DNA of 64,000 nt from NCBI GenBank assembly GCA_025351795.1, contig JANXVG010000011.1:1-64000 (forward strand), in the 5' to 3' direction. Numbering within the stretch: position 1 is the first letter of the stretch; every line of letters starts with the position of its first letter. Below the pieces are notes generated by a model. It saw nothing but the letters and a program-made list of their open reading frames with translations, was not told the origin of the DNA and searched no databases. The position numbers were made by a program, and so were the translations under genes. This DNA is from Salinibacterium sp. GTDB taxonomy: Bacteria > Actinomycetota > Actinomycetes > Actinomycetales > Microbacteriaceae. Of the stretch, positions 25,676-40,553 are shown one piece after another.

Positions 25676-26326
25676 TCAGGCCGCCGGTGCCGACAGTTTC
25701 GTGAGGGCAATCAGCCGCTCACGACCGTTCGAGTGCCAATAGCAGGTCTGCAGAATCACGTCAGCCGCGAGCTGCGCGGTGGCGATGGCCGCGCTGTCGC
25801 CAGCATGCGCGTCGCGCCCAGCAGTCACCACGTACGTGCCGTCGAGCCCCATGCCGCTGAGCACGACGGTGTCACCGGCGCGCATGTCGAGCACGATCGA
25901 GCCGCCGCAGTAGTTGTGGGCGCCCACGATCGGAGCAACAGCCCCGAGTTGCATCCGCACCCACAGACAGCGGTCGATTTCGGTCTGGTAACCGGTGGCG
26001 TCAATAACGATAGACCAGCCGTGGTGACCGGTGCTCGGCGGTGATACCAACTGCGGGCCGGGCGCGACGAGAGTCGCGGATACCTCGACCGGTTGCGGAA
26101 ATGCGGTCGTTGCCGGGATCATTGTTGTCGCCGTGGCACCCGCACTCGGCGAGTGACCCGCAGTCGCAGCCGATGCCAGCGGCGTGCGTGCCCCCTGAAT
26201 ACCCGATGTAAGCGCCACCGCTGCCGCGAGCGCAGCAGCGAAAGCGAGCGCACGCCAGATAGCGGTGCGCTTTCGCGCCTGATGGTAGGCGCGAAACGGA
26301 TGGTCGGGTGACTCGCTCTTCTGCAT
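25676..26326 (-). CDS. Sortase-fold transpeptidase with intact catalytic residues, membrane-anchored
   Basis: The product is 216 aa. The N-terminus has one membrane helix (about residues 25-45) after a basic cytosolic tail; a Ser/Thr/Ala-rich linker leads to the domain. I recognise the sortase core by VGAHNYCGGSIVLDMRAGD, with the catalytic His about residue 136, the TLxTC-like ILQTCYWHSN with Cys about 193, and RERLIAL for the Arg. Sortases cleave C-terminal sorting signals and attach proteins to the cell wall. It is 21 bp downstream of pstB and probably the last gene of the surface/Pst cluster. Overall similarity to named classes is low; the class E/F type is the closest guess. Confidence 0.7.
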   Translation of the reverse strand: MQKSESPDHPFRAYHQARKRTAIWRALAFAAALAAAVALTSGIQGARTPLASAATAGHSPSAGATATTMIPATTAFPQPVEVSATLVAPGPQLVSPPSTGHHGWSIVIDATGYQTEIDRCLWVRMQLGAVAPIVGAHNYCGGSIVLDMRAGDTVVLSGMGLDGTYVVTAGRDAHAGDSAAIATAQLAADVILQTCYWHSNGRERLIALTKLSAPAA

Positions 26327-26347: not shown

Positions 26348-27379
26348 CTAGCCGAATCGGCCGCCCACATAGTCGGCCGTGCGCGAGTCGCTCGGCGCGC
26401 CAAATATCTGTTCAGTAGGACCCTGTTCGACGATTCCACCTGGAGTCCCCTGGGCGGCAAGGAAGAACGCGCAGTTGTCTGACACCCGCTGGGCCTGCTG
26501 CATATTGTGGGTCACGATTACAATCGTGACCTCTTTGGCGAGTTCGAGCATCGTCTCTTCGATCACGCGAGTTGATGTGGGGTCCAGTGCCGAGCACGGC
26601 TCGTCCATGAGCAGTACGCGCGGCCGTACAGCGAGTGATCTGGCGATACAGAGCCGCTGCTGCTGGCCACCGGAGAGCCCACCGCCCGGTTGGCGAAGTC
26701 GATCGCGCACCTCTTTCCAGAGGCCCGCCTTGATGAGGCTCGCCTCCACGAGCTGGTCTTTGGCATCCCGACCGGCCTTCGTTCCTGTCAGGCGCAACCC
26801 GGCGACCACGTTGTCATAGATAGACATGGCCGGAAACGGGTTCGGCTTCTGAAACACCATTCCAATGTGGCGCCGTGCGTCGGTCAGGCGACGATTCGCA
26901 TCGTAGATGTCGACCCCGTCGAGCAATACTTCGCCAGCCAGCGAAGCGGATGGCACCATTTCGTGCATGCGGTTCAGGATGCGCAGAAACGTTGACTTGC
27001 CGCAGCCCGATGGGCCGATGAGCGCCGTGATCATTCCTGACTCCATGGTCAGCGAGACCCGGTCGAGCACCTTCCGCTCGCCGAACCAGGCCGAGATTGC
27101 CCGAGCATCGAGCGTGGCCAGCTCGGCTGGCGGCGCAAGCACGACCGGCGAAACGACTACCGCGTCGACGCTCTGGATCGGCACCTGCACCTCTAAGCGG
27201 AGATCGACTAGTGTCGACTCTCCCTCGTGTGTCGGCTCAGTTTCGATCTCGGTCTCGGTCTCGATCTCGGCTAAGGCAGCCATGGAATCGATTTCGATTT
27301 CGTCCGTTGGCACGTAAGTACCATCATTCTCGACGCGCTCAATTACCGCGTTCGCGTCCCGCGTGGTCGTCTCAGTCAT
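26348..27379 (-). CDS. pstB: Phosphate-type ABC transporter ATPase PstB with an acidic N-terminal extension
   Basis: The product is about 343 aa; normal PstB is about 260. I start it at ATG 27377-27379, with GGAG 6 nt upstream. Residues 1-85 are unusual: Glu/Thr-rich ([18 protein letters not shown]) and unlike PstB. The ATPase then follows with Walker [20 protein letters not shown], the signature [16 protein letters not shown], Walker [14 protein letters not shown] and the switch His in VTHNMQQAQ. It energises PstC/PstA, whose genes lie 11 kb upstream at the front of the same strand-collinear cluster. It starts 14 nt after the stop of the inactive sortase-like gene. Confidence 0.9.
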
Positions 27380-27393
27380 GGTGTTCTCCGGTG

Positions 27394-28374
27394 TTACAGC
27401 AGGTTGGGCAGGGTGGTCATGGCGGCACCCGCGGTAGCAGCTCCGAGGGCGAGCCAGACCGGAATAGTAATCACCCAGGTTTGCCACAGACCCCATCGCG
27501 AACGAACCCACCGCAGGGCGATCACGGCAACGGTCAGCAGCTGCAGCCAAAAGATTGTCGCAAACCAACCTCCGGAGTCGGATCCCATCGCGAGTTCAGA
27601 GCGATCGAGCACTTCTTTGGTAAAGACGGGTGACGGCGTCGTCTGCACTTTCGACGTCAATGACGCATCGATATGTAACGCACCCGATGGGGCGAGAGGG
27701 ATGCCGTCCGCAGTGATCAACTCAAGCCGACCCTCCCCAGACTTCAGTTCCTGGGGCAGAAGATCGCCCTCCCGTCGCACCCCGAAGACGTCGTATGTGC
27801 TCGTACCCTGTCCGGTAACAATCGTGATTGTGTCGCCCGGAATCAGTGCACTGAGGCGCCCAAACGGCCCGCCGTAGGTCGCCTGACGGCCCATGATGAT
27901 GCTCGTGCCATCTTGCCCTGGCAGCACGGTATCGCGGCGATGCCCGGGGCCTTCGGTGAGATCACTCGGCCGGGTACCCTGCACGACCACCTCGTTGATG
28001 TCGAGTCGCTTGATAGTGAGCAAAGCCAGCGGTGTGCCGTTGGAAACGAGCTTCGCGTTGACGTCGAGTTGCCCGAGTGGCGTGGTCGCAAGAGCAAGTT
28101 CCGAGCGCAACTGTTGGTAGAGCAAGTATTGCCCGCGGCTATGTTGCAGTGAGCCCACGATCGTGACGTGCGCCACGAACCCGAGCAGAAGAGCGGATGT
28201 CAGCAACCACACCACACCAGCCCACCACCGAATCTCACGCGGCGTCGGCTCCGGCCGACGACTGCGCCGGCGTTTCGGTGGCGTGCGCAACCAGATCGGC
28301 AATGCGCTGCGGGCCGTCGGGGCAGGCTTCGTGGGCTGCGGTGCCGCAACGGGAGGCTCGAGCGTCACCGTCAC
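27394..28374 (-). CDS. Sortase-like membrane protein lacking catalytic His, Cys and Arg
   Basis: The product is about 326 aa. A GTG start at 28372-28374 overlaps the upstream stop by 4 nt. It has a basic, Pro-rich N-terminus, a membrane helix (about residues 55-75), then a sortase-like domain: [20 protein letters not shown] aligns by eye with the usual GHR...F..L block, and [10 protein letters not shown] and YDVFGVR match following strands. The catalytic His position is Gln, the Cys block reads ELITADGIP with Ala, and the terminal Arg position is not Arg. Two further membrane helices close the protein. I infer a non-catalytic sortase-fold scaffold working with neighbouring surface proteins. 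Confidence 0.65.
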
Positions 28375-29126
28375 GGTGCAGATCCAGTCGGCTCGGTCGT
28401 GACGCCGAACCACCCGGCGATCGTGCGACGGAAGTGGATCGACGTCGAGATCAGCCCGATCAGCAGAACGCCGAACACCACAATCAGCCACCACAGTGCG
28501 GGAATCGAGGCGACCGCGGCACCGCTGAGCACGGTGAATCTCTTGTTCTCGATGTGCCGCGAATCCCAGCCGGTTGCCTCGGTCACGTGAACACCTGAGC
28601 GCAGCGAATCGGGCACCAGAAAGCGAGCGGTAGCCTGCCCAGACGCATTGGCGACGAAGCTGCCCACGACGATCGGATCGGAGTAGAGCACGAACTTGAC
28701 TTTTTCGCCCGGGGTGAACCCGCTGCCGATCGCGATCATCCACTGTTTCGTGCTAATGCGCTCGTGGTCGAGTTCTAACCCATCGGCGTGCTCGGTGGGC
28801 GCACGCGGCACAGTCGGGGAACCATCGGGGTCGGTGGGGCGCGTTCCACCGCCCGAGCCTGAGCCGCCACCCGCACCTCCTTGGCCCGATCCACTGCCGG
28901 AGCCGGTTCCATTGTCTCCTCCGTCGCTTCCCCGGTCATCCTTGCCGGTTGAACTGGGAGTGGGCGTCGGGGGAAAACTCTTCTCCGGGATTACCACAGT
29001 CAGGGGTATCGGCGACGGACTGATCGCCGAGATCGCCATTGCTGGCATCAGGAACGCACTCAGTATCGTCGCTACGATGACGACCGCACCAGCGCCGACT
29101 GTAGCCAGCTTTGCGTCGAGCTTCAC
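28371..29126 (-). CDS. Gly/Ser-rich exported membrane protein
   Basis: The product is 251 aa. It has an N-terminal signal or anchor helix (about residues 8-32), a low-complexity linker rich in Gly, Ser and Asp (about 60-105), a folded extracellular region with SKQWMIAIGSGFTPGEKVKF (a pattern seen in Ig-like/adhesion-type domains), and a C-terminal membrane helix (ALWWLIVVFGVLLIGLI) with a basic end. The start overlaps the DUF916 gene stop by 4 nt and the stop overlaps the sortase-like gene. Its role is probably a surface-exposed linker or receptor. I recognise no named family. Confidence 0.7.
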   Translation of the reverse strand: MKLDAKLATVGAGAVVIVATILSAFLMPAMAISAISPSPIPLTVVIPEKSFPPTPTPSSTGKDDRGSDGGDNGTGSGSGSGQGGAGGGSGSGGGTRPTDPDGSPTVPRAPTEHADGLELDHERISTKQWMIAIGSGFTPGEKVKFVLYSDPIVVGSFVANASGQATARFLVPDSLRSGVHVTEATGWDSRHIENKRFTVLSGAAVASIPALWWLIVVFGVLLIGLISTSIHFRRTIAGWFGVTTEPTGSAP

Positions 29127-30289
29127 TTGCCAGTCGCTTCCTCAGCAGCGGATGCACCGATGGCCTGTTCCCGTGCCGCATGGGTGGCCTCATCGATGGC
29201 CAGGTACATGCGCTCACGGGTGCCACTCAAGTAGCGCCAGATCAGGTAGATCACCGCAATCACTATGATCACCAGAATCAGCAATGTCCACGAGATGGCA
29301 AGGGTCGTCACCGTCGACGAGACCACCGTGAATCCGCTTGCGGTGGTGTCGACGACTGCGTCACTAGTGGCGGCCGTAGTCGGCGTGGGCGACGGGGTCG
29401 GCGTTGCGGTCGATCCAGTGGCGGCCGGTTTGTCGGCGGTGCCCACCTCGCCCGGGGTCAAAGTCACTGTCGACCAGGCAAGCGCGAGAGCCGCGATCGC
29501 GGGTACATCCGCGGTGATTCGCACCGTCTGGCGCGGCAGGATATTCACGACCGGCTTGGGGGTGAACGCGCCAAGCGGAATACCGAATGGACCGGTGATC
29601 ACGATTCTTTGATTGACATCCATACGCAGGTTGCCCGTGTTGCTCACGTCGTAACCGATGGAGAGCGTACCGGGCGCGAACGGGTTGAACGAGGGGCCGT
29701 AGCCCGAGACGAGGCCAACCGCTTCGACGCCGACCTTCGGCACTCCCGAGACTTTCAGGTAGACGCGAGCACCCACCCGTTGCTCGAGGGTGACGGCCGC
29801 ACCACTCTGAGTGCCCGTGGTGAGTACGGCCGCCACAATTCCCGCGACATGATCTCCGGGAGCGGCATCCGAAGGAATGACCATGCTGAATGGCACCGTG
29901 GCCTGAGCGCCGGGCTGAATGGTGATTTTGCTGTTGGCGAGGGTTACCCAACCGCCGACGTCGGTCGGTTTAGCGCTGTGAGCGAGTAGCCCAAACGCGC
30001 CCGTCGACGGCTCATTAATTGCGTCGGTTGCATAGAGCATGAAGTCAGCCGCGGTCGCCCCGGAATTGGAGACAACGACGCTGTCGACGATCTGCGTTCC
30101 GGGGCCGACCGAGTACTCAAAGGTGCGGCGTTGGCCATCGGTCGTCGGAGCTGGTTCGACGCTCCAGGTGATCTCGCCGTCGGCGGACGCGGTCTCGGGC
30201 AGGCCACCGCCGAGCGCGTGGATGAGGACCGGCGACAGGGCAAGCGTGAGAGCGACCAGCACAGCGACGGAAGCAGTGATTCGGGACAT
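29123..30289 (-). CDS. DUF916 / WxL-interacting-type surface protein
   Basis: The product is about 388 aa starting at ATG 30287-30289. It has a signal peptide (SVAVLVALTLALSPVLIHAL), then beta-rich domains with the DUF916-like pattern ITWSVEPAPTTDGQRRTFEY, DSVVVSNSGATAADFMLYAT and PSDAAPGDHVAGIVA, and a second Ig-like domain (about residues 200-270). After a Thr/Pro-rich linker comes one membrane helix (about 325-350) and a cytosolic tail. In Firmicutes, DUF916 proteins bind peptidoglycan and partner with WxL proteins; the gene next upstream encodes a WxL-like protein. No clear ribosome-binding site precedes the ATG. Confidence 0.8.
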   Translation of the reverse strand: MSRITASVAVLVALTLALSPVLIHALGGGLPETASADGEITWSVEPAPTTDGQRRTFEYSVGPGTQIVDSVVVSNSGATAADFMLYATDAINEPSTGAFGLLAHSAKPTDVGGWVTLANSKITIQPGAQATVPFSMVIPSDAAPGDHVAGIVAAVLTTGTQSGAAVTLEQRVGARVYLKVSGVPKVGVEAVGLVSGYGPSFNPFAPGTLSIGYDVSNTGNLRMDVNQRIVITGPFGIPLGAFTPKPVVNILPRQTVRITADVPAIAALALAWSTVTLTPGEVGTADKPAATGSTATPTPSPTPTTAATSDAVVDTTASGFTVVSSTVTTLAISWTLLILVIIVIAVIYLIWRYLSGTRERMYLAIDEATHAAREQAIGASAAEEATGK

Positions 30290-30401
30290 TGTGAGGAGCC
30301 AATCATCAAGAAGCGAGCAGATGGTGAACTGGTGATGAACGGGGCAAGCGGGTTGGAGTCGATACGAGATCGACCCCAACCCGCCGGTTATTACTACTGA
30401 C

Positions 30402-31694
30402 CTAGATGAGGGTCAGCGTGAGGGTTGCCGAGTACGCGCCAGCAGGCGTGTTCGACGGCGCCTTCAACTGCAGCACTGCTGCTGCGTTGGTTACCGTTCC
30501 CGCGGAGCTCGGGGATCCGCTGGCCAGCTGGCTGATCGCCTTGAGGCCGAGATCTCCCACTGCAACAGCTGGCAGAACGAGGGCACCAGCAACGGAGCCA
30601 CCGGCGGAACCGCTGACTGCCGGGGTCCAGCCGAGGTACTTACCGAGGAGAGTCTTGGCACCCACGGTGAAGTCGCCGACCTGGCCGGTGAGGCTCCAGC
30701 TCGGGTAGTCGAGCTGGCGGGAGTCCGTCACGACCGCAGCGAGTGAACCACTCGCGTTGAGCGTTCCGGCGCTGAGCGTTGCCGTGCCGAGGGAAACCGT
30801 CGACGAGACACCGGTCAGGGTCAACGTGCCGACGCCCGAAGGAATCGTCGTGGTGACCGTTGACGGCGACGAGCTGCCACCGACCTGCACAGTGGATGTT
30901 GCCGAGGTGGAGGTGGCGTAGACGGCGTCGGACGGAACGAACTGCGCGGTGTAGGAGTGAGTTCCGTAAGATACGCCGGTGAGCGACGCCGAAGCGACGC
31001 CCGAAGCGACGGCAACAGTGGCAACCGTGGTGGAGCCTTCATTGAACACAACGCTTCCGGCGGCGGCGGTTGCCGTGCTGGAATCGCTGAGCTTCTGCAC
31101 GGTCGCGCCGAGGCTGACCGTTGTTCCCGAAGCGCCAGCGGTCAACGAGACGTTGGTGGTGATCGCGGGTGCGGCGGGAAGACCCCAGGCACCGGTCGTG
31201 GTGTTGTAGGTCATGTCCAACTTCACGTACGGGTCGGTCGCGCGGTTCGGCGATGTCTTCGACGCAAAGTAGTAGTAGCGAAGCTCGAACGGGCCCGAGA
31301 CCAGCGTGCTCAGGGTCGGGTCGTTCAGTAGCTTGCTGCTCAGGAAGGTGTTCGTCGGGGTGATCGAGCGGTCCATGAACGCCGGCTGGCCGTCGAGACC
31401 GTTGGTGCCAGACGTCGACACCTGCGAGGAACTGCGTGCCTGTGCAACTGATCCGACTTCTACACCGCCCTGATAGACGAACGTGCCACTCAACAGGTTG
31501 TACGGAGCTGTCGCGCCGACGCTCACTGCCATGCTGTTGAAGAAGTTGACGTCAGTGTTGACGTTTCCGCTCGTCGGCGTGATGGTGATCGTTCCGGCGA
31601 TCTGGGCAGCCTGCGCGGTCTGGGCTGCGCCCAGAACACCGACCACCATGGCACCGGCGATAGCCAATGCGGCGATTTTCTTGGAAATTCTCAT
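30402..31694 (-). CDS. Secreted Ig-like protein with WxL-like C-terminal domain
   Basis: The product is 430 aa, with AAGGAAA before the ATG. A signal peptide ends near AQTAQA (residue about 30). Residues about 180-285 form a Big_3/Big_5-type Ig repeat (GTHSYTAQFVPSDAVYATST). The C-terminal part has the two spaced Trp motifs of WxL domains, YPSWSLTGQVGDF and LGWTPAV, and ends in the beta pattern APSNTPAGAYSATLTLTLI. WxL domains attach non-covalently to peptidoglycan. WxL proteins are best known from Firmicutes, so this is a notable actinobacterial example. It sits directly upstream of the DUF916 gene, as in Firmicute WxL loci. Confidence 0.75.
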   Translation of the reverse strand: MRISKKIAALAIAGAMVVGVLGAAQTAQAAQIAGTITITPTSGNVNTDVNFFNSMAVSVGATAPYNLLSGTFVYQGGVEVGSVAQARSSSQVSTSGTNGLDGQPAFMDRSITPTNTFLSSKLLNDPTLSTLVSGPFELRYYYFASKTSPNRATDPYVKLDMTYNTTTGAWGLPAAPAITTNVSLTAGASGTTVSLGATVQKLSDSSTATAAAGSVVFNEGSTTVATVAVASGVASASLTGVSYGTHSYTAQFVPSDAVYATSTSATSTVQVGGSSSPSTVTTTIPSGVGTLTLTGVSSTVSLGTATLSAGTLNASGSLAAVVTDSRQLDYPSWSLTGQVGDFTVGAKTLLGKYLGWTPAVSGSAGGSVAGALVLPAVAVGDLGLKAISQLASGSPSSAGTVTNAAAVLQLKAPSNTPAGAYSATLTLTLI

Positions 31695-32909: not shown

Positions 32910-32944
32910 CCCCTCATTGGCTTTGCGGTTCGATGAGGGGTTTT
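32910..32944. terminator. Hairpin between the 899-aa protein gene and the second PstS-like gene
   Basis: CCCCTCAT (32910-32917) pairs with ATGAGGGG (32933-32940) over a 15-nt loop, followed on the plus strand by TTTT. The T-tract suits termination of plus-strand, antisense transcription. On the minus strand it could be an attenuator or processing site in the leader of the 31732-32853 gene. A second small hairpin (AGTCC/GGACT, 32894-32907) adjoins it. Confidence 0.5.
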
Positions 32945-32984: not shown

Positions 32985-35684
32985 TTAGAGGAACCCTCTT
33001 CCTCGGAACAAAAACGGTGCGATCAGGAAGCCCACGAGCCCAATGCCCAGCGCGATCGCGAGGCCAGAGCGCGCAATTGGCTCAGTGCTTGATACCGCGG
33101 TGCGATCGGTCTTCAGCGAATCGGCGCCGGGAGTCAGTACCGGCGTGGCACCCGAGCCACTCGATAGTCCAGCCCCGGCCGCCGCAACCGACGAATCGTA
33201 GGTGTCGTGTGCGTACGCCCCAGAGTTGGTGTTACCGGAGTTCGACGCTGTCGGTACATACGACTTAATGTCGTCGGCGGCGGCGCTTGCCTGGCTGACC
33301 ATGTCGGCCGTGAGCGGCAAATATCCGGCAGGCAGGTTACCGATGGCCGAGCCCGACACCTGCCCGCTTGTGGTGACCTGCTTCAGCATGTCGGTGATGG
33401 TCGAACGGGCCGCCGGGCTGGCCTTGGTCAGATTGACACCCGCGTAGGTGACGATGGTCATCGGGTAGCCGTTGTCAGGCACCAGTGCTGGATCGATCTG
33501 TTTGACCGTGTCGAGGCTGGTCGGCGCGAGGGCGACCAGTGCGTTGGTCATGCCCGCCGCATCCGCGCTCACCACCGTCGCAGGATTGTTAGGTACACCG
33601 ATCGCCGCTGTGCTCAAGCCGTACCGCGCCGCGGACGGACTGTCAGTAATGGCGATCATGAATTTTGAGCCCGGCAGCTGCGTTCCGCTGCTGACCCAGT
33701 CACCAACTCCTGCACCGTCGGTGACCTTGTACGGATCCCAATAGCTCTTAGAGTTGGGGTTTGCGCGGAATGCCTGACGTGCCGCCGTCAAGAGGTTGTC
33801 GGTGTACGGCGCAAACTGGATCGAGTCGAATCGCAATCTCTCGTTACTCAGTTTGAGCGGCGCCAGAGTCTCGTCATTCTTGGGAAAGGTATCGAGATTC
33901 AGGAGGGTCAGTTTTTTCGGCGAACCGTCGAGGTTCGTGAGCCCGACATTGCGCTGCACCGGCGTCTCGAGGTAGTTGTTCGCCGAGTCTAGGTACCACG
34001 GTACGACTGCCCCAGGGTCGCCCTTCGGCAAGTAGTAGGGGTTGATCGTCATCCCCGAAGGGTCCGCGGCGCCGTTCAGGAACGCAACGGCATCCTTATC
34101 CGCGAGAATCCAGCGCCATACCTGGCGAATTGCATCGGCACCTGCCGGGCCGGGCAGTACGATCGCCGGATCGGACGTGAACTGCTTGTAGTTGGTGGGA
34201 TTCATGGCCTGAAAGTCAGGATCATCGCTCAGGTAGTGGTATTTTCGGTTGACCCCGGGGAGCTGTGCGACCTGCTTCGTCGGCTCGGAGACACTCTGAG
34301 GTACCGTGAACGTGTAGGACTGGGTGAGCAGTTTGGCCATTAGTCGCGGTGAAATATTCAAGTGCTCTTGTCGTCCACCGTCAAACTCAGCGTTGAACGC
34401 GATTACCACACTCGAAATGGCGACCGGTGCATACCTGAGTTTTGTCTTCGACAGCACTTGGCGTTCGCCATCGGTGAGAAGCTCGCCCGCGCTCACCGGA
34501 TACCCGGAGTAGGCGATATTCGGGGTGGTGACGCCAGTTTCGATGAGTTGCGCCCTAGCCACGGAATCGGGATTGGTCGAGAAGCTGAACGTGCTCTTCA
34601 CTGTGGTGCAGAGCGATGGTTGCCACGAGCTCATCGCGCTGACCATGAGCTGTGACCCGATCACCCGAACCTCGCTGCTCCCCACGACACACGTGCTGCC
34701 GGTGGGCGCAAAATCGAGGGGCACGACAATTCGATTTTTCCAGTAGTCGCACAGATCGTTGACCGGGCTGCCACCCTGAATCGAGTTGGGACGATCGACC
34801 GTATACAGGGCGAAGTTGTTTGCGGGCTCCCGAATGCCGCTGCACTGTTCGCCGTCTCCGCCGAAAACGGTTCCGCGCGGTACAACTACCAGCCAGCACC
34901 GCAAGTGTTCCGGGGTTCCACAGCCCATCTGTGGCGCCTGTTTGGAGGTTTGTGTCTCGAAGTCGAAGAATCCGTTGCCCGTGTCGCCCACTCTCGCGCT
35001 CGTCACTTCGTTGGTCGTCGACGGGCCAAAATAGTCGAGAATGTCGTATTGCGAGACACCCGACGCGGTCAGATGTGGCTTACCGCTCACCGTGACGCCA
35101 CCCACCGTAAGAAACGGCACATCGTGCGTGGTCGGGTGAGCTGGATCGAGGTCAAGCGGCCCGACGCGCAACGCGTTGTCGGGTATCACCGAGTCACCTA
35201 GTCCGTTGTTTTCGGTTAGTGCTCGCGCACCCCACAGGCAGGTGTGACTGAAGTCGGCAGCACTCGGATCGGTACCCCAACACTGCATGGCCTGCAGGTA
35301 GTTCATCGCGTTAGTTGCCGCGGCTCCCGATTGGGTCGACGACCGTGTGCCGGCGAACCCCGTCACGCTCACCCGAATGGCTTGGTCGATGATTCCGGAC
35401 GTCTGCGAAACCGAAATCGCGATTTTCTTGAACTCGTTGTAGTGCGGGCTCGAGGCGTCGCGGGTGGGCTGCACCGCTTGCGCGCTCGAGTTGTCTGAGA
35501 CCCACTTCACTGAGAGGGCCGACGAGCCGGATGCCGCAGCATCCGCACTCGGCTGCTGCAGCGGGCCGATCGCCACCAGACCACCAATCGCTACCGCGAC
35601 CAGGGTCGCCGAGGCGATCCGCACCGCCACCATGCGGGGGTGCGTGCTGCGAGATGTACCGCGGGGGTTCGACACGGCCATCAC
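32985..35684 (-). CDS. Large exported, C-terminally membrane-anchored protein of the Pst/surface cluster
   Basis: The product is about 899 aa. The GTG at 35682-35684 follows the PstS stop directly and has GGAGG at good spacing; an ATG follows it at once. It has a signal helix (about residues 20-45), a long extracellular region with several Cys (AMQCWG, LRCWLVVVPRG), and a C-terminal membrane helix (SGLAIALGIGLVGFLIAPFL) ending RGRGFL, resembling a sorting tail without LPxTG. Some segments (for example RQVWRWILADKDAVAFLNGA) look like a much enlarged PstS-type binding protein. I do not recognise a named family. Its position after pstC-pstA-pstS suggests a substrate-capture or assembly role. Confidence 0.7.
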   Translation of the reverse strand: MMAVSNPRGTSRSTHPRMVAVRIASATLVAVAIGGLVAIGPLQQPSADAAASGSSALSVKWVSDNSSAQAVQPTRDASSPHYNEFKKIAISVSQTSGIIDQAIRVSVTGFAGTRSSTQSGAAATNAMNYLQAMQCWGTDPSAADFSHTCLWGARALTENNGLGDSVIPDNALRVGPLDLDPAHPTTHDVPFLTVGGVTVSGKPHLTASGVSQYDILDYFGPSTTNEVTSARVGDTGNGFFDFETQTSKQAPQMGCGTPEHLRCWLVVVPRGTVFGGDGEQCSGIREPANNFALYTVDRPNSIQGGSPVNDLCDYWKNRIVVPLDFAPTGSTCVVGSSEVRVIGSQLMVSAMSSWQPSLCTTVKSTFSFSTNPDSVARAQLIETGVTTPNIAYSGYPVSAGELLTDGERQVLSKTKLRYAPVAISSVVIAFNAEFDGGRQEHLNISPRLMAKLLTQSYTFTVPQSVSEPTKQVAQLPGVNRKYHYLSDDPDFQAMNPTNYKQFTSDPAIVLPGPAGADAIRQVWRWILADKDAVAFLNGAADPSGMTINPYYLPKGDPGAVVPWYLDSANNYLETPVQRNVGLTNLDGSPKKLTLLNLDTFPKNDETLAPLKLSNERLRFDSIQFAPYTDNLLTAARQAFRANPNSKSYWDPYKVTDGAGVGDWVSSGTQLPGSKFMIAITDSPSAARYGLSTAAIGVPNNPATVVSADAAGMTNALVALAPTSLDTVKQIDPALVPDNGYPMTIVTYAGVNLTKASPAARSTITDMLKQVTTSGQVSGSAIGNLPAGYLPLTADMVSQASAAADDIKSYVPTASNSGNTNSGAYAHDTYDSSVAAAGAGLSSGSGATPVLTPGADSLKTDRTAVSSTEPIARSGLAIALGIGLVGFLIAPFLFRGRGFL

Positions 35685-35685
35685 G

Positions 35686-37437
35686 TTACGAGTCCTCCGT
35701 CGGTCGCGAAGCACGACCACCTTTCCTAATGAATGCCGGTAGATGAACTTTTGGGGTCAGAACCGTGCGCACGCCACCGAGTCGGGCTCGCGTCCGGATT
35801 CGCTTGACGACGCGACCCGTCGGCCCCCTCGGTGCGTTAGCGAGCGCTGCGGATCGCTGGCGCGCGACCAGAGGCGGAAGCACGATCGCGAGGAGGGCCA
35901 CCAGCACGGCGAGGATCATGAGCAATAGAGTCGGAAGCGGTAACCCCCGACTCGGCAGGTCAATCGGCGAGCCAGCAATCACGGGATTACCTCCGCCAGC
36001 CAAGCCGACCACACCACTACTCGATCCGGCACCATTCGGGCCATTGGTCGATTTCGAGCCACCAACTCCGCCCACGGTTGTGCCACTGCCCGAATTACTC
36101 GCCGTCGCCACATCGGCGGCACCCCCGGTGCCCGTCAAACACTGGTCTGCACCCTTCTTGTCACACTCTTGCGGTTGGGGCGCCGTGGCGGCCAGTTTGT
36201 TCGTACCATCGGTCGAAAACGTGGGATTGTTGCACCGGCTGATGTCTTTATTGAGCGGGTCGCCACCGGGAATCTTTTGAATCTGTGCCAGACCTGCCGC
36301 AGCCAGGTTGATCGGCAGCGGGGAGTAGCCGAGAACTTCCGCCTGTTGCTGGCCCTCGCACAGAAAATACGACGCGAAATCGGCGAGGGTAAGACCCTTA
36401 TTTGTAGTGAACCTACCCTCGACGGCGGTGGGAATGATCATGTACGAGTACGACGACAACGGGTACGCTCGGGGGTCGGCATTCGAGTAAACTCCCCCCA
36501 GTTGAGACGTGAGGTAGTCGGGCGAATTTGCGTCGTTGTTGATCACCGCGGCAAGCAGTGACACCGCGACGTTGGATGCGGTCGGCTCGGTGTAGTAGCC
36601 AGCCGAATTCAGCACCTTCGCTACCGGAAATCGTGCGTTGAGCGCATAAGAGTCTTCAACGTAGGTAATTGCGCCCACTGACTTGTCAAGCGCAACCTGA
36701 CCGGCCACGCCGTTAGACCCCTGTTGACCGAGGAAGGCCGACCCGGGCACGATCGGATAGTTCGAGGTGATTCCGCAGATGGCTTTGCCAGCCTTGGCGC
36801 AGTAGGCGGTCCAGATCGCGGGAAACTGCGACCGCATCCACGATGTGAGCTGGGCCGTCGTTCCCGACCCGTCTGAACGCACAACGGGCACGATGGTGAT
36901 GCCGGGCAGCGTCAGCTTGGGGTTATCTGCGGCGATCGCAGAGTCATTCCACTTAGTGATCACACCCGTGAAGATATTGGCGAGTGTCTGTCCAGACAAC
37001 CGCAGGTTGGTGACCCGCTGGCCACCGATGACGAGGTTGTACATGAACGCGGTGCCCCCAGCCACGATGGGCACGTAAGCGAACTGCCTGGTCGGTCGGA
37101 GATCGGGGCTATCGCTGCCGGAGAGCGCGTACGGAATTTCGGAGACCCCGAAGTCCGCCGTGCCCTGAGAAAATGCCGCCCGTCCGGCGGACGAGCCCGA
37201 ATTGTCGTACGTCACCTTCCAGCCGTAGTTGTCGAACACATTGCGGATCCACTGGTCGAGCGCGTTCGCGGACCACGAGGACCCCGTCCCGGCAATCGGG
37301 TCGTGGGTGGCGCCAGCAGCCGTCGCAGTTGACGCGATTGCGACCGAGGGCACCAGCGCGGTGGCGAGCACGATCATGGAGGATACGACGACGCGGACTG
37401 CGCGCCTGCAGCCAGATCGACACGGGGTGCTACTCAC
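35686..37437 (-). CDS. pstS: Membrane-anchored phosphate-binding protein PstS with cytosolic tail
   Basis: The product is 583 aa; usual PstS is about 350. A signal peptide (residues 14-42) precedes the phosphate-binding fold with GTGSSWSANALDQW, SGSSAGRAAFSQGTADFGVS and SDGSGTTAQLTSWM, the canonical anion-binding loops. A Gly/Ser/Asn linker (about 440-490) leads to LPSRGLPLP, a membrane helix (about 497-520) and a 60-residue basic cytosolic tail. This is unlike the lipoprotein PstS of most bacteria. The gene overlaps pstA by 4 nt. LPSRG before the helix is only loosely like a sortase motif. Confidence 0.88.
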   Translation of the reverse strand: MSSTPCRSGCRRAVRVVVSSMIVLATALVPSVAIASTATAAGATHDPIAGTGSSWSANALDQWIRNVFDNYGWKVTYDNSGSSAGRAAFSQGTADFGVSEIPYALSGSDSPDLRPTRQFAYVPIVAGGTAFMYNLVIGGQRVTNLRLSGQTLANIFTGVITKWNDSAIAADNPKLTLPGITIVPVVRSDGSGTTAQLTSWMRSQFPAIWTAYCAKAGKAICGITSNYPIVPGSAFLGQQGSNGVAGQVALDKSVGAITYVEDSYALNARFPVAKVLNSAGYYTEPTASNVAVSLLAAVINNDANSPDYLTSQLGGVYSNADPRAYPLSSYSYMIIPTAVEGRFTTNKGLTLADFASYFLCEGQQQAEVLGYSPLPINLAAAGLAQIQKIPGGDPLNKDISRCNNPTFSTDGTNKLAATAPQPQECDKKGADQCLTGTGGAADVATASNSGSGTTVGGVGGSKSTNGPNGAGSSSGVVGLAGGGNPVIAGSPIDLPSRGLPLPTLLLMILAVLVALLAIVLPPLVARQRSAALANAPRGPTGRVVKRIRTRARLGGVRTVLTPKVHLPAFIRKGGRASRPTEDS

Positions 37438-38882
37438 GATCCGGGGTCCTCACTCGTGTTGTCTGGCTCGGCCGCATCGGCAGATCCACGACGGTAGCGG
37501 GGGGTCGCTGCGGGCTTCGCTCGTGGGCGACGACGCTCGGTGATCGCGAAACGAATGGTCGATGAAATCTCGGTCGCGAAGTGGCGAACCCACTTCATGA
37601 AGGCGGTCGCTTCGGTAGCCGTTGCGTCAGCCGCCAATGGGGCGGCCGCCAACGCTCCGGAAACGACAGCGGCTGGCTTCGCGATCGCATGGGTTGCTCG
37701 GGCAACGCGCTTGCGCGCGACGCTCAACGGAACACCGAGTTCACGGGCGCGGTACCGGTAGTCGTCGTCGCGCGACTGTCTGGTACGCGCGCGCTGCTGG
37801 GCACTGCTCAGCTGCCCCGGCCCCCTGCCGCCGATCGCCCTAGCGAGGGCGAAGAGCAACACCACGAGCACCATGAGCACGGCGGCGGTGCCGAATCCGC
37901 GCGCGATCATGGTGAGCTCCGGCGACTTGACGAACGTGAAAGTAGTGAGCGGCAGCGAGGTCATTGGTCCGCTGAACGGGTTGAGGTTGAGGAAGGTGGT
38001 GGCCCCGGCGGTGAGCAGCACTGGCGAAGTCTCACCGATACCGCGCGCCGTGCCGAGAATCACGGCCGTAGTCAGCCCGGACCGCGCGGTCGGGAGGGTG
38101 ACCGTCCACACCGTGCGCCACGTAGACGCGCCTAGCGCGCGAGCCGCCTCCTTGAGGTTGCCTGGCACGAGCCGCAGCACGACATCCGCTGACCTGATGA
38201 TGATCGGCAGCATCATGACCGTGATGGCGAGTGACGCCGCGAAACCAGACCGATTGAACCCAAGAAACACGATGATGGTTGCATAGATGAACAGGCCCGC
38301 GACGATCGAGGGAAGCGCCGTCATTGCCTCGACGATGGTGCGCACGAATTGCGCGTACCGGCCAGGAAACTCGCTCAAAAAGACAGCCGTCATGATGCCG
38401 AGGGGCACGCTAATCGCGAGTGAGATGGTGATCATGATCAGGGTTCCGGCCACAGCGTGCAGAACGCCGCCCCGGCTCAGCGGATCGAGCGGGCCTGCAT
38501 TGCTCATGTCTTTAGTGAAGAAGTTGAGGTACCCGAGCGGCGCTAAACCCCGCCCAACGGTGTAGAACACGACGGAGAACAGCGCAAGCAGCATGAGGAA
38601 GCCCAGCGAGTGCACGACCACGCTCACCATGCGGTCGCGAACCGTTGGGCCGTTCTCGTCGAACGCCGTAAGCAGGCCGAACAGGATCATGAAGAGAAGG
38701 TAGGCAATCACAATGAAGCCGATTGCGCCCTCAAGCGGCAGAGCGTAGACGAACAGCCAGGCCGTGAAGCCAATGGATGCTCCCGCACACCCGAGCAGTC
38801 GAATCACGTCGACTGCACGCAGGGTCGAGGTCACGCGCCGCACCTCGACGGCAGGCGGCCCCTTCACGAGCGCGGTAGTCAT
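37434..38882 (-). CDS. pstA: Phosphate ABC transporter permease PstA with a long C-terminal tail
   Basis: The product is 482 aa; PstA is usually about 290. The N-terminal region (residues 1-60) has two extra helices, then the permease core with LPSIVAGLFIY, the EAA loop NLKEAARALGASTWRTVWTV and GIGETSPVLLTAGA. After the last helix a basic, Ala-rich cytosolic tail of about 120 residues follows (from about 365), ending SADAAEPDNTSEDPGS. The start overlaps the pstC stop by 1 nt. Tail and extra helices suggest additional contacts with cytosolic or membrane partners in this locus. Confidence 0.9.
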   Translation of the reverse strand: MTTALVKGPPAVEVRRVTSTLRAVDVIRLLGCAGASIGFTAWLFVYALPLEGAIGFIVIAYLLFMILFGLLTAFDENGPTVRDRMVSVVVHSLGFLMLLALFSVVFYTVGRGLAPLGYLNFFTKDMSNAGPLDPLSRGGVLHAVAGTLIMITISLAISVPLGIMTAVFLSEFPGRYAQFVRTIVEAMTALPSIVAGLFIYATIIVFLGFNRSGFAASLAITVMMLPIIIRSADVVLRLVPGNLKEAARALGASTWRTVWTVTLPTARSGLTTAVILGTARGIGETSPVLLTAGATTFLNLNPFSGPMTSLPLTTFTFVKSPELTMIARGFGTAAVLMVLVVLLFALARAIGGRGPGQLSSAQQRARTRQSRDDDYRYRARELGVPLSVARKRVARATHAIAKPAAVVSGALAAAPLAADATATEATAFMKWVRHFATEISSTIRFAITERRRPRAKPAATPRYRRGSADAAEPDNTSEDPGS

Positions 38883-39955
38883 CAGTCGCTCTGGCTTCCG
38901 GATCGACTGCGTGCAATGATCGTCGACGCCACGAAGTTGACGACCAAGGTCGCCAAAAAAAGCGTCAGACCCGCGGCCATGAGCGCGGAAATTTCGAACG
39001 ACGAGGCCTCGTTATAGCGCAGGGCAATGAGCGCAGAGATGGTGTTCGCTCCCTTCTCGAGAATGTGCGGCTGAATCACGAAGACCGGCGAGATGATTAG
39101 GTACACGGCGATAGTCTCCCCGAGCGCGCGGCCCAGGCCGAGCATCGTTCCGCCAATGATTCCGCCCCGCCCGAACGGAAGAACCACGCTGCGGATCATT
39201 CCCCAGCGAGTCGCGCCCAGCGCGAGCGCCCCCTCACGTTCACCGATCGGTGCCTGCGTGAATACCTCGCGCATAATCGAACTCGCGATCGGAGCCACCA
39301 TGAGGGCCACGACGATTCCGGCAATGAAGGTGGATGCCGCGAACACAGTCGGAGTGGCGAGCGGGTCGTTCGGGTCGAAGCCACTCACCGCGAAGATAGG
39401 TATCCAGCCCAGGTAGGTGGCGATCCACTGCGACACGGGAAGAATGTTCGAGCTCAGGAAGAACACGCCCCAGAGTCCGTAGACGACACTCGGCACCGCC
39501 GCCATCAGGTCGACGATGGTCACGAGCACGTTCTTTATCTTGAGTGGCGAATATTCGCTGATGTAAAGCGCCGTACCAATCGCGAGTGGGAACGCGAATG
39601 CAATTGCAGTGAGAGCGACAAGAACCGTGCCCGTGAGCACCGCGGCGATGCCAAACTTCCCGGAGTTGGGATCCCACGACTGCTCAGTGATGAACGAGGG
39701 GCCGGCGACGTGGAAGGCCCGGAATCCCTGAACGAGCAGGAATATTCCGACCAGCGACATGACCGAAACCACAATCGTGCCGCTGCCGCGAGCCACCCAC
39801 TTGAACGCTATATCGGGCCGATCAGTGGCTGCTGACAGCGTGCGCGGGAAGTCGGCGACGACCGCCACGACCTCGGTGGCCAGCTCATCGCTCGCGGTGC
39901 CGAGCTCCGCCTCCAGCACACGCGTATGGGTCTTAGGTTCGGTAGGCACGATCAC
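38882..39955 (-). CDS. pstC: Phosphate ABC transporter permease PstC
   Basis: The product is about 357 aa if it starts at the GTG at 39953-39955; a GTG at 39949 is an alternative and the ribosome-binding site is weak (GGCGGG). It has six membrane helices, the periplasmic EQSWDPNSGKFGIA typical of PstC, LPVSQW, and the EAA loop EREGALALGATRWGMIRSVV with GRALGETIAVYLI. It forms the channel with PstA. The start lies inside the 3' end of the upstream small gene by about 20 nt, which suggests coupling. Confidence 0.92.
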   Translation of the reverse strand: MIVPTEPKTHTRVLEAELGTASDELATEVVAVVADFPRTLSAATDRPDIAFKWVARGSGTIVVSVMSLVGIFLLVQGFRAFHVAGPSFITEQSWDPNSGKFGIAAVLTGTVLVALTAIAFAFPLAIGTALYISEYSPLKIKNVLVTIVDLMAAVPSVVYGLWGVFFLSSNILPVSQWIATYLGWIPIFAVSGFDPNDPLATPTVFAASTFIAGIVVALMVAPIASSIMREVFTQAPIGEREGALALGATRWGMIRSVVLPFGRGGIIGGTMLGLGRALGETIAVYLIISPVFVIQPHILEKGANTISALIALRYNEASSFEISALMAAGLTLFLATLVVNFVASTIIARSRSGSQSD

Positions 39956-40424
39956 CCGCCATGAGAGCGGGGTCCGTGAGCCGTGCCCCGGGCCGCAAGG
40001 TGGCGATAGCGATAGCACGAAGGGCGAGCTCAATCGAATGGCGGCGGTCGCGATCGGTCAGGTACCAGCGCGCGCAGGTCATCACCGGGGTGTCGTCAAT
40101 GCTCGCGTACCAGCCGTACACACCGCGGCCGGCCTCGCTGACGAGCTCAACCTGCAGGGTGTTGCTCGATTCGATGACCTCTCGTGCGTCCGCCGTGGCT
40201 ACTTCGAAGGTGTCACGCACTTCGACGCTACGGGCGAGCTGACGGTTATTTGCCGAGACCAGCTGCCAGACGAGCAGGCTCTCGGTGACCGGCAACGGTT
40301 CACCGGGCGACGCATGCGCGACACGGCTGCCCAAAACTCGTTGAAGATGCCCCAACCACGGGGTGAGCTTCGGGCTGTCGCTCGCAACGAAGCGCACAAA
40401 CACCACTCGCGGACCAACCGACAT
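39933..40424 (-). CDS. Hypothetical protein preceding pstC
   Basis: The product is 163 aa, with no signal peptide or membrane helix. AAGGTGG lies about 9 nt before the ATG. It is mixed alpha/beta in look, with a central LQVELVSEAGRGVYGWYASI and MTCARWYLTDRDRRHSIELA; I do not recognise a domain. Its 3' end overlaps the start of pstC by about 20 nt, so it is likely the first gene of the surface/Pst cluster. It begins 130 bp from tRNA-Gln. Confidence 0.7.
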   Translation of the reverse strand: MSVGPRVVFVRFVASDSPKLTPWLGHLQRVLGSRVAHASPGEPLPVTESLLVWQLVSANNRQLARSVEVRDTFEVATADAREVIESSNTLQVELVSEAGRGVYGWYASIDDTPVMTCARWYLTDRDRRHSIELALRAIAIATLRPGARLTDPALMAGDRAYRT

Positions 40425-40553
40425 GGCTCGGCCACCTTCTTACTCGGAGTCGCATCGTCGGAATCGATGCGAATGGAGTCAATGCGGCGACGCCAAACAC
40501 GCGACCGCTGGCACACGAACGGCGACAATCACGCAGGTGAACAATTGGTGTAC

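Follow-up and report, generated by a model that had tools for sequence, protein, structure and literature searches.

Divergent relatives of the WxL and WxLIP proteins within a Pst-type operon of Salinibacterium sp.

Gene content of the locus

We analyzed a 64,000-nucleotide stretch of DNA from Salinibacterium sp. (contig JANXVG010000011.1, positions 1-64,000, assembly GCA_025351795.1), referred to here as the window, which contains two adjacent minus-strand genes encoding a WxL-like protein with an immunoglobulin (Ig)-like domain and a WxLIP-like partner with a DUF916 domain. A first-pass annotation, made from the sequence alone, had proposed that these genes correspond to the WxL/DUF916 gene pairing of Firmicutes. 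Both genes exist, the first encoding the sequences SWSLTGQ and LGWTP as described, and the comparisons presented below uphold the pairing in a diverged form. That annotation made no mention of the surroundings of the pair, which are a Pst operon and a sortase-like gene (Table 1). The genes form what we call the island, in the order pstC-pstA-PstS-P911-PBP, pair, 251-amino-acid membrane protein, sortase-like gene and pstB. The WxLIP-like gene starts with the ATG at 30289, and our analyses ran from 30292, which makes the protein one codon longer.

Table 1. Features of the pair and of the island in the window.
Feature	Position	Strand	Domains and scores
WxL-like protein, 430 aa	30402..31694	minus	signal peptide, N-terminal beta region, Ig domain 183-271, C-terminal WxL-like domain ~280-430
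WxLIP-like protein, 388 aa	29123..30289	minus	DUF916/PGBD domain, second sandwich domain, linker, C-terminal transmembrane (TM) helix
251-aa membrane protein	28371..29126	minus	linker rich in Gly and Ser, one Ig-like stretch
Sortase-fold membrane protein lacking the catalytic His and Cys (putative pseudo-sortase)	27394..28368	minus	PF04203 E 2e-12
PstB-like ATPase, N-terminal extension	26348..27397	minus	TIGR00972 337.7 bits, cut-off 343.2
Secreted PBP-like protein PBP373, 373 aa	31732..32853	minus	PF12849 E 2.2e-8, 34.7 bits, above cut-off 27
P911, 901 aa, C-terminal TM	32985..35690	minus	residues 344-813 PstS-like
PstS-like protein, 583 aa, C-terminal TM helix and basic tail	35686..37437	minus	PF12849 E 2e-40
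PstA permease	37434..38882	minus	TIGR00974 201.2 bits, above cut-off 193.45
PstC permease, true start probably near 39957	38882..40033	minus	TIGR02138 252 bits, above cut-off 196.45
PHO-box-like repeat GTACACC-4-GTTCACC, upstream of operon	40536..40553	minus	
PHO-box-like repeat (13/14), gap between WxL-like and WxLIP-like genes	30323..30340	minus	
Strong hairpin, 16-nt arms, without T run, gap between the genes of the pair	30348..30384	minus	z -5.06

The WxL-like protein

A Pfam scan of the first protein of the pair identified a Big_3_5 domain (E 5.3e-8, 33.7 bits, under the cut-off of 35.5) and gave no match to the WxL family, PF13731, which likewise has no match anywhere in the same genome. 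Of 27 relatives, 5 matched PF13731 at E ≤ 1, with a best value of 0.0048. Across 100 genomes of the family, 22 gave a match at E ≤ 1, mostly weak and in the corresponding genomic context, although some of the weakest were located elsewhere, and 1 exceeded the cut-off. This sole match over the cut-off belongs to locus L067 (genome G078), where a Firmicutes-style cluster consists of a small WxL-like, a DUF916, a large WxL-like and a second small WxL-like gene.

We then compared families of domains by profile-profile alignment, using 44 actinobacterial C-terminal domains, from which those nearest the Firmicutes had been excluded, and 14 Firmicutes WxL domains. The comparison scored 97.4% (E 9.5e-12) over 150 columns, and three cross controls of the profile-profile comparisons scored 0.38, 0.15 and 1.96%. 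In an alignment of 103 domains, drawn from two overlapping sets of loci (one drawn by means of the sortase-like protein and one seeded with DUF916), the first WxL motif has Trp in 100 of 103, with Leu two residues on in 67, Val in 18, Ile in 15 and another residue in 3. The window's first motif is the WSL inside SWSLTGQ. At the second motif, Trp is found in 0 of the 103 domains (78 Leu, 10 Ile, 7 Val, 4 Phe, 1 Thr and 3 gaps), and in the window this position lies in the extreme C-terminus, YSATLTLTLI, with Leu in place of Trp. Thus, one of the two Trp motifs read from the sequence earlier, SWSLTGQ, does contain a WxL motif, but the other does not: LGWTP is a separate, partly conserved motif with Trp in 83 of 103, and the alignment rules it out as the second WxL motif.

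The WxL-like domain is terminal, with 100 of the 103 finishing no more than 5 residues from the C-terminus. An iterated profile of the C-terminal part recovered 47 further full domains in 40 loci. These and the window's domain, 48 in total, have one invariant Trp in common, and a C-terminal beta motif is shared by all of them apart from those of L067 and L084. For the predicted structure of the protein, which has a mean predicted local distance difference test score (pLDDT) of 80.3, the matches in a full-length fold search came through the Ig domain (residues 178-273) only. Because the profile homology holds while the Trp of the second motif is absent, we call the domain WxL-like rather than canonical WxL. 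Judged from these alignments, it is a divergent homolog of the WxL domain, and it probably works much as the Firmicutes domain does.

The WxLIP-like protein

The second protein of the pair matched DUF916 (Pfam WxLIP_PGBD, PF06030) with an E value of 3.2e-4 and 21.1 bits, under the 27.3-bit cut-off, and this is the single place in the genome that PF06030 matches. Among relatives scanned singly, 27 of 28 matched the family at E ≤ 0.1 (best 1.7e-9). Profile-profile comparison of 52 DUF916-like proteins with 8 Firmicutes WxLIPs scored 98.3% (E 1.6e-14) over 285 columns. When the proteins were split by domain, the DUF916 part alone scored 98.1% and the second domain scored 1% against DUF3324. The outcome of the profile searches suggested by the first-pass annotation is therefore mixed at the level of Pfam, with no WxL match and a sub-threshold DUF916 match in the window, and positive for both proteins at the level of profile-profile comparison. 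In RefSeq, the second gene is named 'DUF916 domain-containing protein' on plasmids of Clavibacter, Cellulosimicrobium, Streptomyces and Arthrobacter; the preceding gene is annotated as hypothetical in three of these four and as RICIN domain-containing in Streptomyces.

A structural model of the WxLIP-like protein (mean pLDDT 84.7) was used for a Foldseek search, in which the E. faecium WxLIP ranked first (E 1.5e-11). Structural alignment of the model with chain 9i25_C gave a Z score of 17.5 over 238 residues within positions 40-334, encompassing both domains; the next unrelated entry reached 13.2 and aligned over one domain only. This model suggests that a DUF3324/HBD-type second domain is present even though it is unrecognizable by sequence, so that the DUF3324 partner that had been thought missing would reside in the same protein. 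The model also predicts a C-terminal TM helix at residues 335-388, and the hydrophobic stretch is visible in the sequence.

It had further been suggested that the 251-aa membrane protein replaces DUF3324. We rejected this candidate for the window, since by structure the second domain sits in the DUF916 protein itself. A Pfam scan of the 251-aa protein gave no family at a meaningful score, and its family scored 43.6% (37 columns) in comparison with the actinobacterial DUF916 family and 73.5% (61 columns) with the Firmicutes WxLIPs, in each case near the C-terminal ends of both. This component is present in part of the islands, and in many of them it occupies the equivalent slot. The suggestion was not far off, because in four sister loci the gene in this slot encodes a copy of the DUF916 second domain with a TM helix (99.3%; L120 12791-13708, L121 4209-4985, L122 11028-12053 and L125 11712-12545).

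Occurrence of the pair and the island

Relatives of the DUF916-like protein were found in 51 of 150 genomes of the family and relatives of the Ig/WxL-like protein in 40 of 150, many of them co-located. To count the pair in islands we used loci drawn by the sortase-like protein regardless of the pair, taking those of at least 20.5 kb from the best 80 of 488 relatives. P911 is present in all 47 of these loci and pstB in 46. The pair is complete in 25, absent from 22 and split in 0, so both genes or neither are found, which supports the pairing. These proportions, which derive from the best 80 of 488 relatives, are no estimate of prevalence, and the 10-kb flanks may miss a pair that lies farther off and often cut off pstC. 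The other set of loci, in which the first 20 were chosen for the DUF916 gene, yielded 23 islands with both genes and 17 with neither; because it was seeded with DUF916, the absence of WxL-only islands cannot be read from this tally. The two sets overlap in at least five loci (L192, L197, L202, L213 and L214). Among the loci of the first 20 relatives, 11 have the island and 9 have the pair only. Several Micromonosporaceae have the two genes side by side on the opposite flank of pstB. The window holds one WxL-like gene, and some relatives hold two or more.

In a tree of 87 DUF916-like proteins the island copies cluster, with 6 label changes versus a shuffled mean of 29.1, and these copies likely have more than one origin. 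P911 serves as the island marker. Of 150 genomes of the family, 35 encode it (24 of 85 genera); so do 33 of 297 genomes of the order at E ≤ 0.001 and, with the threshold set at E < 1e-100, 7 of 346 in a phylum sample, some of these from other classes. By hand count, a DUF916 gene lies within 10 kb of P911 in 26 of 39 P911 loci. Two P911 loci apiece are found in genomes G060, G089, G115 and G122, and both are near a DUF916 gene in G060, G089 and G122. A search of 84,980 species gave 488 relatives of the sortase-like protein. The best 80 of these include members of Microbacteriaceae, Promicromonosporaceae, Bifidobacteriaceae, Propionibacteriaceae, Jiangella, Streptomyces, Micromonosporaceae and Nakamurella, and the nearest named isolate among them is Salinibacterium xinjiangense, at 76%. 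One island, in a metagenome-assembled genome labeled Aeromicrobium (L187), is nearly as close to the window's as that of Salinibacterium is; this contig is perhaps misplaced.

The importer and its binding proteins

PstC, PstA, PstB and PstS are all present in the window, with PstB and PstS slightly under their equivalog cut-offs (196.6 bits for the PstS-like protein against TIGR00975, cut-off 205). All 16 island genomes tested encode at least two PstC proteins over the cut-off, and two of two same-genus genomes without a P911 island encode one each. The PstS-like protein matches solved PstS with E 9.8e-32 and retains the RSDGSGT motif. P911 has no Pfam match; in profile-profile comparison its residues 344-813 scored 96.8% (E 2.8e-10) against the island PstS. 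The PBP scored 64% against PstS by the same method, and all 17 of the PBP373 sequences compared share the ligand-binding SGT.

We also considered an extended PBP as a general stand-in for the pair in islands that do not have it. This was only partly borne out, as PBP lengths disagree between the locus sets: PBPs of at least 600 aa, measured as open reading frames with uncertain starts, occur in 13 of 16 islands without the pair in the DUF916-seeded set and in 2 of 27 in the sortase-drawn set. Of 17 extended PBPs, 3 contain a stretch that resembles the window's Ig domain (E 1.3e-8, 2.3e-5 and 0.0092).

A second intergenic hairpin lies at 32910-32940 (z -3.02) and, like the one in Table 1, has no T run. 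The two hairpins flank the PBP and WxL-like genes on either side and are possibly transcript processing or stability elements.

The sortase-fold protein

The protein encoded downstream of the 251-aa membrane protein matches solved sortases over about 90 residues (best E 7.7e-16) and scores 64.3 bits with the class E sortase model NF033747, far below the 160-bit cut-off. In 43 of 43 aligned island sortase-like proteins there is no catalytic Cys at the aligned place, and the column of the catalytic His holds Arg or Lys; four of them (L083, L112, L113 and L114) have a His one or two residues off this column. Where six true sortases from related genomes have A.HR and TC, the island proteins have GR. 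and TA.G or the like, respectively. By this alignment the protein is a pseudo-sortase that has lost its catalytic residues, and family-based annotation would read it as a working sortase. Nearby, positions 25676-26326 encode a small secreted protein with a weak sortase match (16.7 bits) and a Cys in a TC context, for which no relatives were found among 60 loci searched.

Stand-alone pairs and their cargo

Of the WxL-like proteins that stand apart from islands, 10 were scanned, and 9 carry purple acid phosphatase N-terminal and metallophosphoesterase domains. They are encoded beside a DUF916 gene (L036, L071, L073, L074, L077, L078, L079, L080 and L086) and are probably wall-held phosphatases. 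The proximity of DUF916 to phosphatases has been remarked upon earlier in a Microbacterium context, in the excerpts of PMC12537917 consulted. A haem-binding HtaA domain (E 1e-19) is found in another WxL-like relative, so the WxL-like anchor seems to display varied cargo.

Discussion

According to the sections of PMC9772566 and PMC10599100 that we drew on, more than 91% of known WxL sequences come from Firmicutes (PMC9772566), the WxL domain has a dual Trp-x-Leu motif (PMC10599100), and a WxL cluster is defined as one WxLIP with at least two WxL proteins (PMC10599100). The locus described here resembles Firmicutes WxL/WxLIP clusters, such as that of E. faecium EfmWxLIP1 and its long WxL protein (PDB 9i25), in having a C-terminal WxL-like domain with the first motif and an adjoining protein with a DUF916 domain, a second sandwich domain and a C-terminal TM helix. 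Unlike those clusters, it has lost the second Trp, encodes a single WxL-like protein and so falls outside that definition, has a predicted DUF3324-type domain that is unrecognizable by sequence, and places the pair within a Pst operon. Likewise, the island shares with PstSCAB importers a single operon for PstC, PstA, PstB and a PstS-like protein, but differs in its C-terminal TM helices on the PstS-like proteins, the large N-terminal part of P911, the secreted PBP, pseudo-sortase and surface proteins, and the further PstC elsewhere in the genome. The sortase-like proteins resemble class E sortases in sequence over the matched region but differ in their catalytic positions and low score.

We consider it likely that this divergent WxL/WxLIP-like pair serves a second, specialized phosphate-type Pst importer as a wall-tethered capture module. 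The C-terminal helix of the WxLIP-like protein would fix it in the membrane, where, by analogy with the 9i25 complex, it would bind the C-terminal WxL-like domain; the Ig/WxL-like protein would thereby stay within the wall, next to the transporter. Ligand, in all likelihood inorganic phosphate, could then be gathered across the wall by the secreted PBP and by the two PstS-like proteins with membrane anchors and be handed to PstCAB, with the pseudo-sortase acting as a membrane scaffold and not as a transpeptidase. Expression would probably rise under phosphate limitation. PHO boxes consist of two 11-nt direct repeats, which in S. coelicolor contain GTTCACC, as given in the portion of PMC4415409 consulted. 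The window has two PHO-box-like sites scoring at least 13/14 (Table 1) where 0.02 would be expected, for a pattern that was drawn up once the site was known. A score of at least 12 is reached upstream of pstC in 8 of 46 relatives, compared with an expectation of 0.17 and with none of 45 in a control region. These counts weakly suggest Pho control of the island.

Several observations weigh against this proposal, the late choice of the PHO pattern among them. The pair is absent from 22 of the 47 island loci, and the importer therefore does not need it. In the PstS-like protein, Glu replaces the PstS Asp that we take to be a phosphate contact, and P911 has lost the RSDGSGT motif. Neither the Ig/WxL-like protein nor the PBP has a membrane anchor of its own, so we can only infer their retention in the wall. 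Nor are the PHO-like sites kept from island to island: across 95 entire island loci, 3 sites score at least 13, two of them upstream of pstC, with 0.67 expected, and a three-unit PHO scan of the window gave p 0.12.

Two other explanations appear unlikely. The first is that the second Pst system imports or senses another ligand, such as phosphonate, phosphite or a sugar phosphate, with the pair holding the matching capture protein in the wall. The Asp-to-Glu replacement at a ligand-contact position would fit such a change, as would the presence of another PstC in every island genome tested and of two further PBP-like proteins whose ligands are unassigned, but the PstS-like protein keeps RSDGSGT and SGT does not vary in PBP373. 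The second, which we find similarly improbable, is that the pair serves adhesion or surface display in the ordinary way, as proposed for Firmicutes WxL clusters, and shares an operon with Pst by chance. Stand-alone pairs do occur in the same family, as 9 of the first 20 loci have no pst island, and an Ig-like N-terminal part is the usual make-up of large WxL proteins, as described in part of PMC9772566. However, many genera share a conserved gene order in which the pair keeps its position, the island copies cluster on the tree, and nearly all of the stand-alone WxL-like proteins scanned bear phosphatases rather than adhesins. That the two proteins share nothing but an Ig-like fold with WxL and WxLIP is very improbable: the window proteins do miss the Pfam cut-offs, and chain 9i25_A came third (E 0.031) behind two unrelated chains in a PDB profile search with the WxL family, but this reading is at odds with the profile-profile scores and their low cross controls, the first rank of WxLIP in searches with the WxLIP-like protein, the full-length alignment that includes the C-terminal beta motif, and the adjacency of the genes itself.

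A broader picture is possible, and we offer it tentatively. Many actinobacteria may have an undescribed envelope-spanning capture machine, made up of a second Pst system, anchored and secreted binding proteins and a sortase scaffold, with, in some lineages, a WxL/WxLIP pair that fixes the capture proteins to the wall, and in Microbacteriaceae the pair may also display purple acid phosphatases. Phosphate release and capture in Microbacteriaceae would then use one anchoring system. We found no description of a pair-bearing Pst island in the literature searched, and, as far as that literature shows, the surface parts of this second Pst system, which occurs in many actinobacteria, are unstudied. 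The function of WxL and WxLIP in Firmicutes rests largely on prediction, as stated in the excerpts of PMC10599100 consulted, and the island supplies testable partners for the pair. It would give a pair studied mainly in gut Firmicutes a role in nutrient uptake in actinobacteria, and the cluster makes testable how thick-walled Gram-positive cells bring phosphate to their membrane importers.

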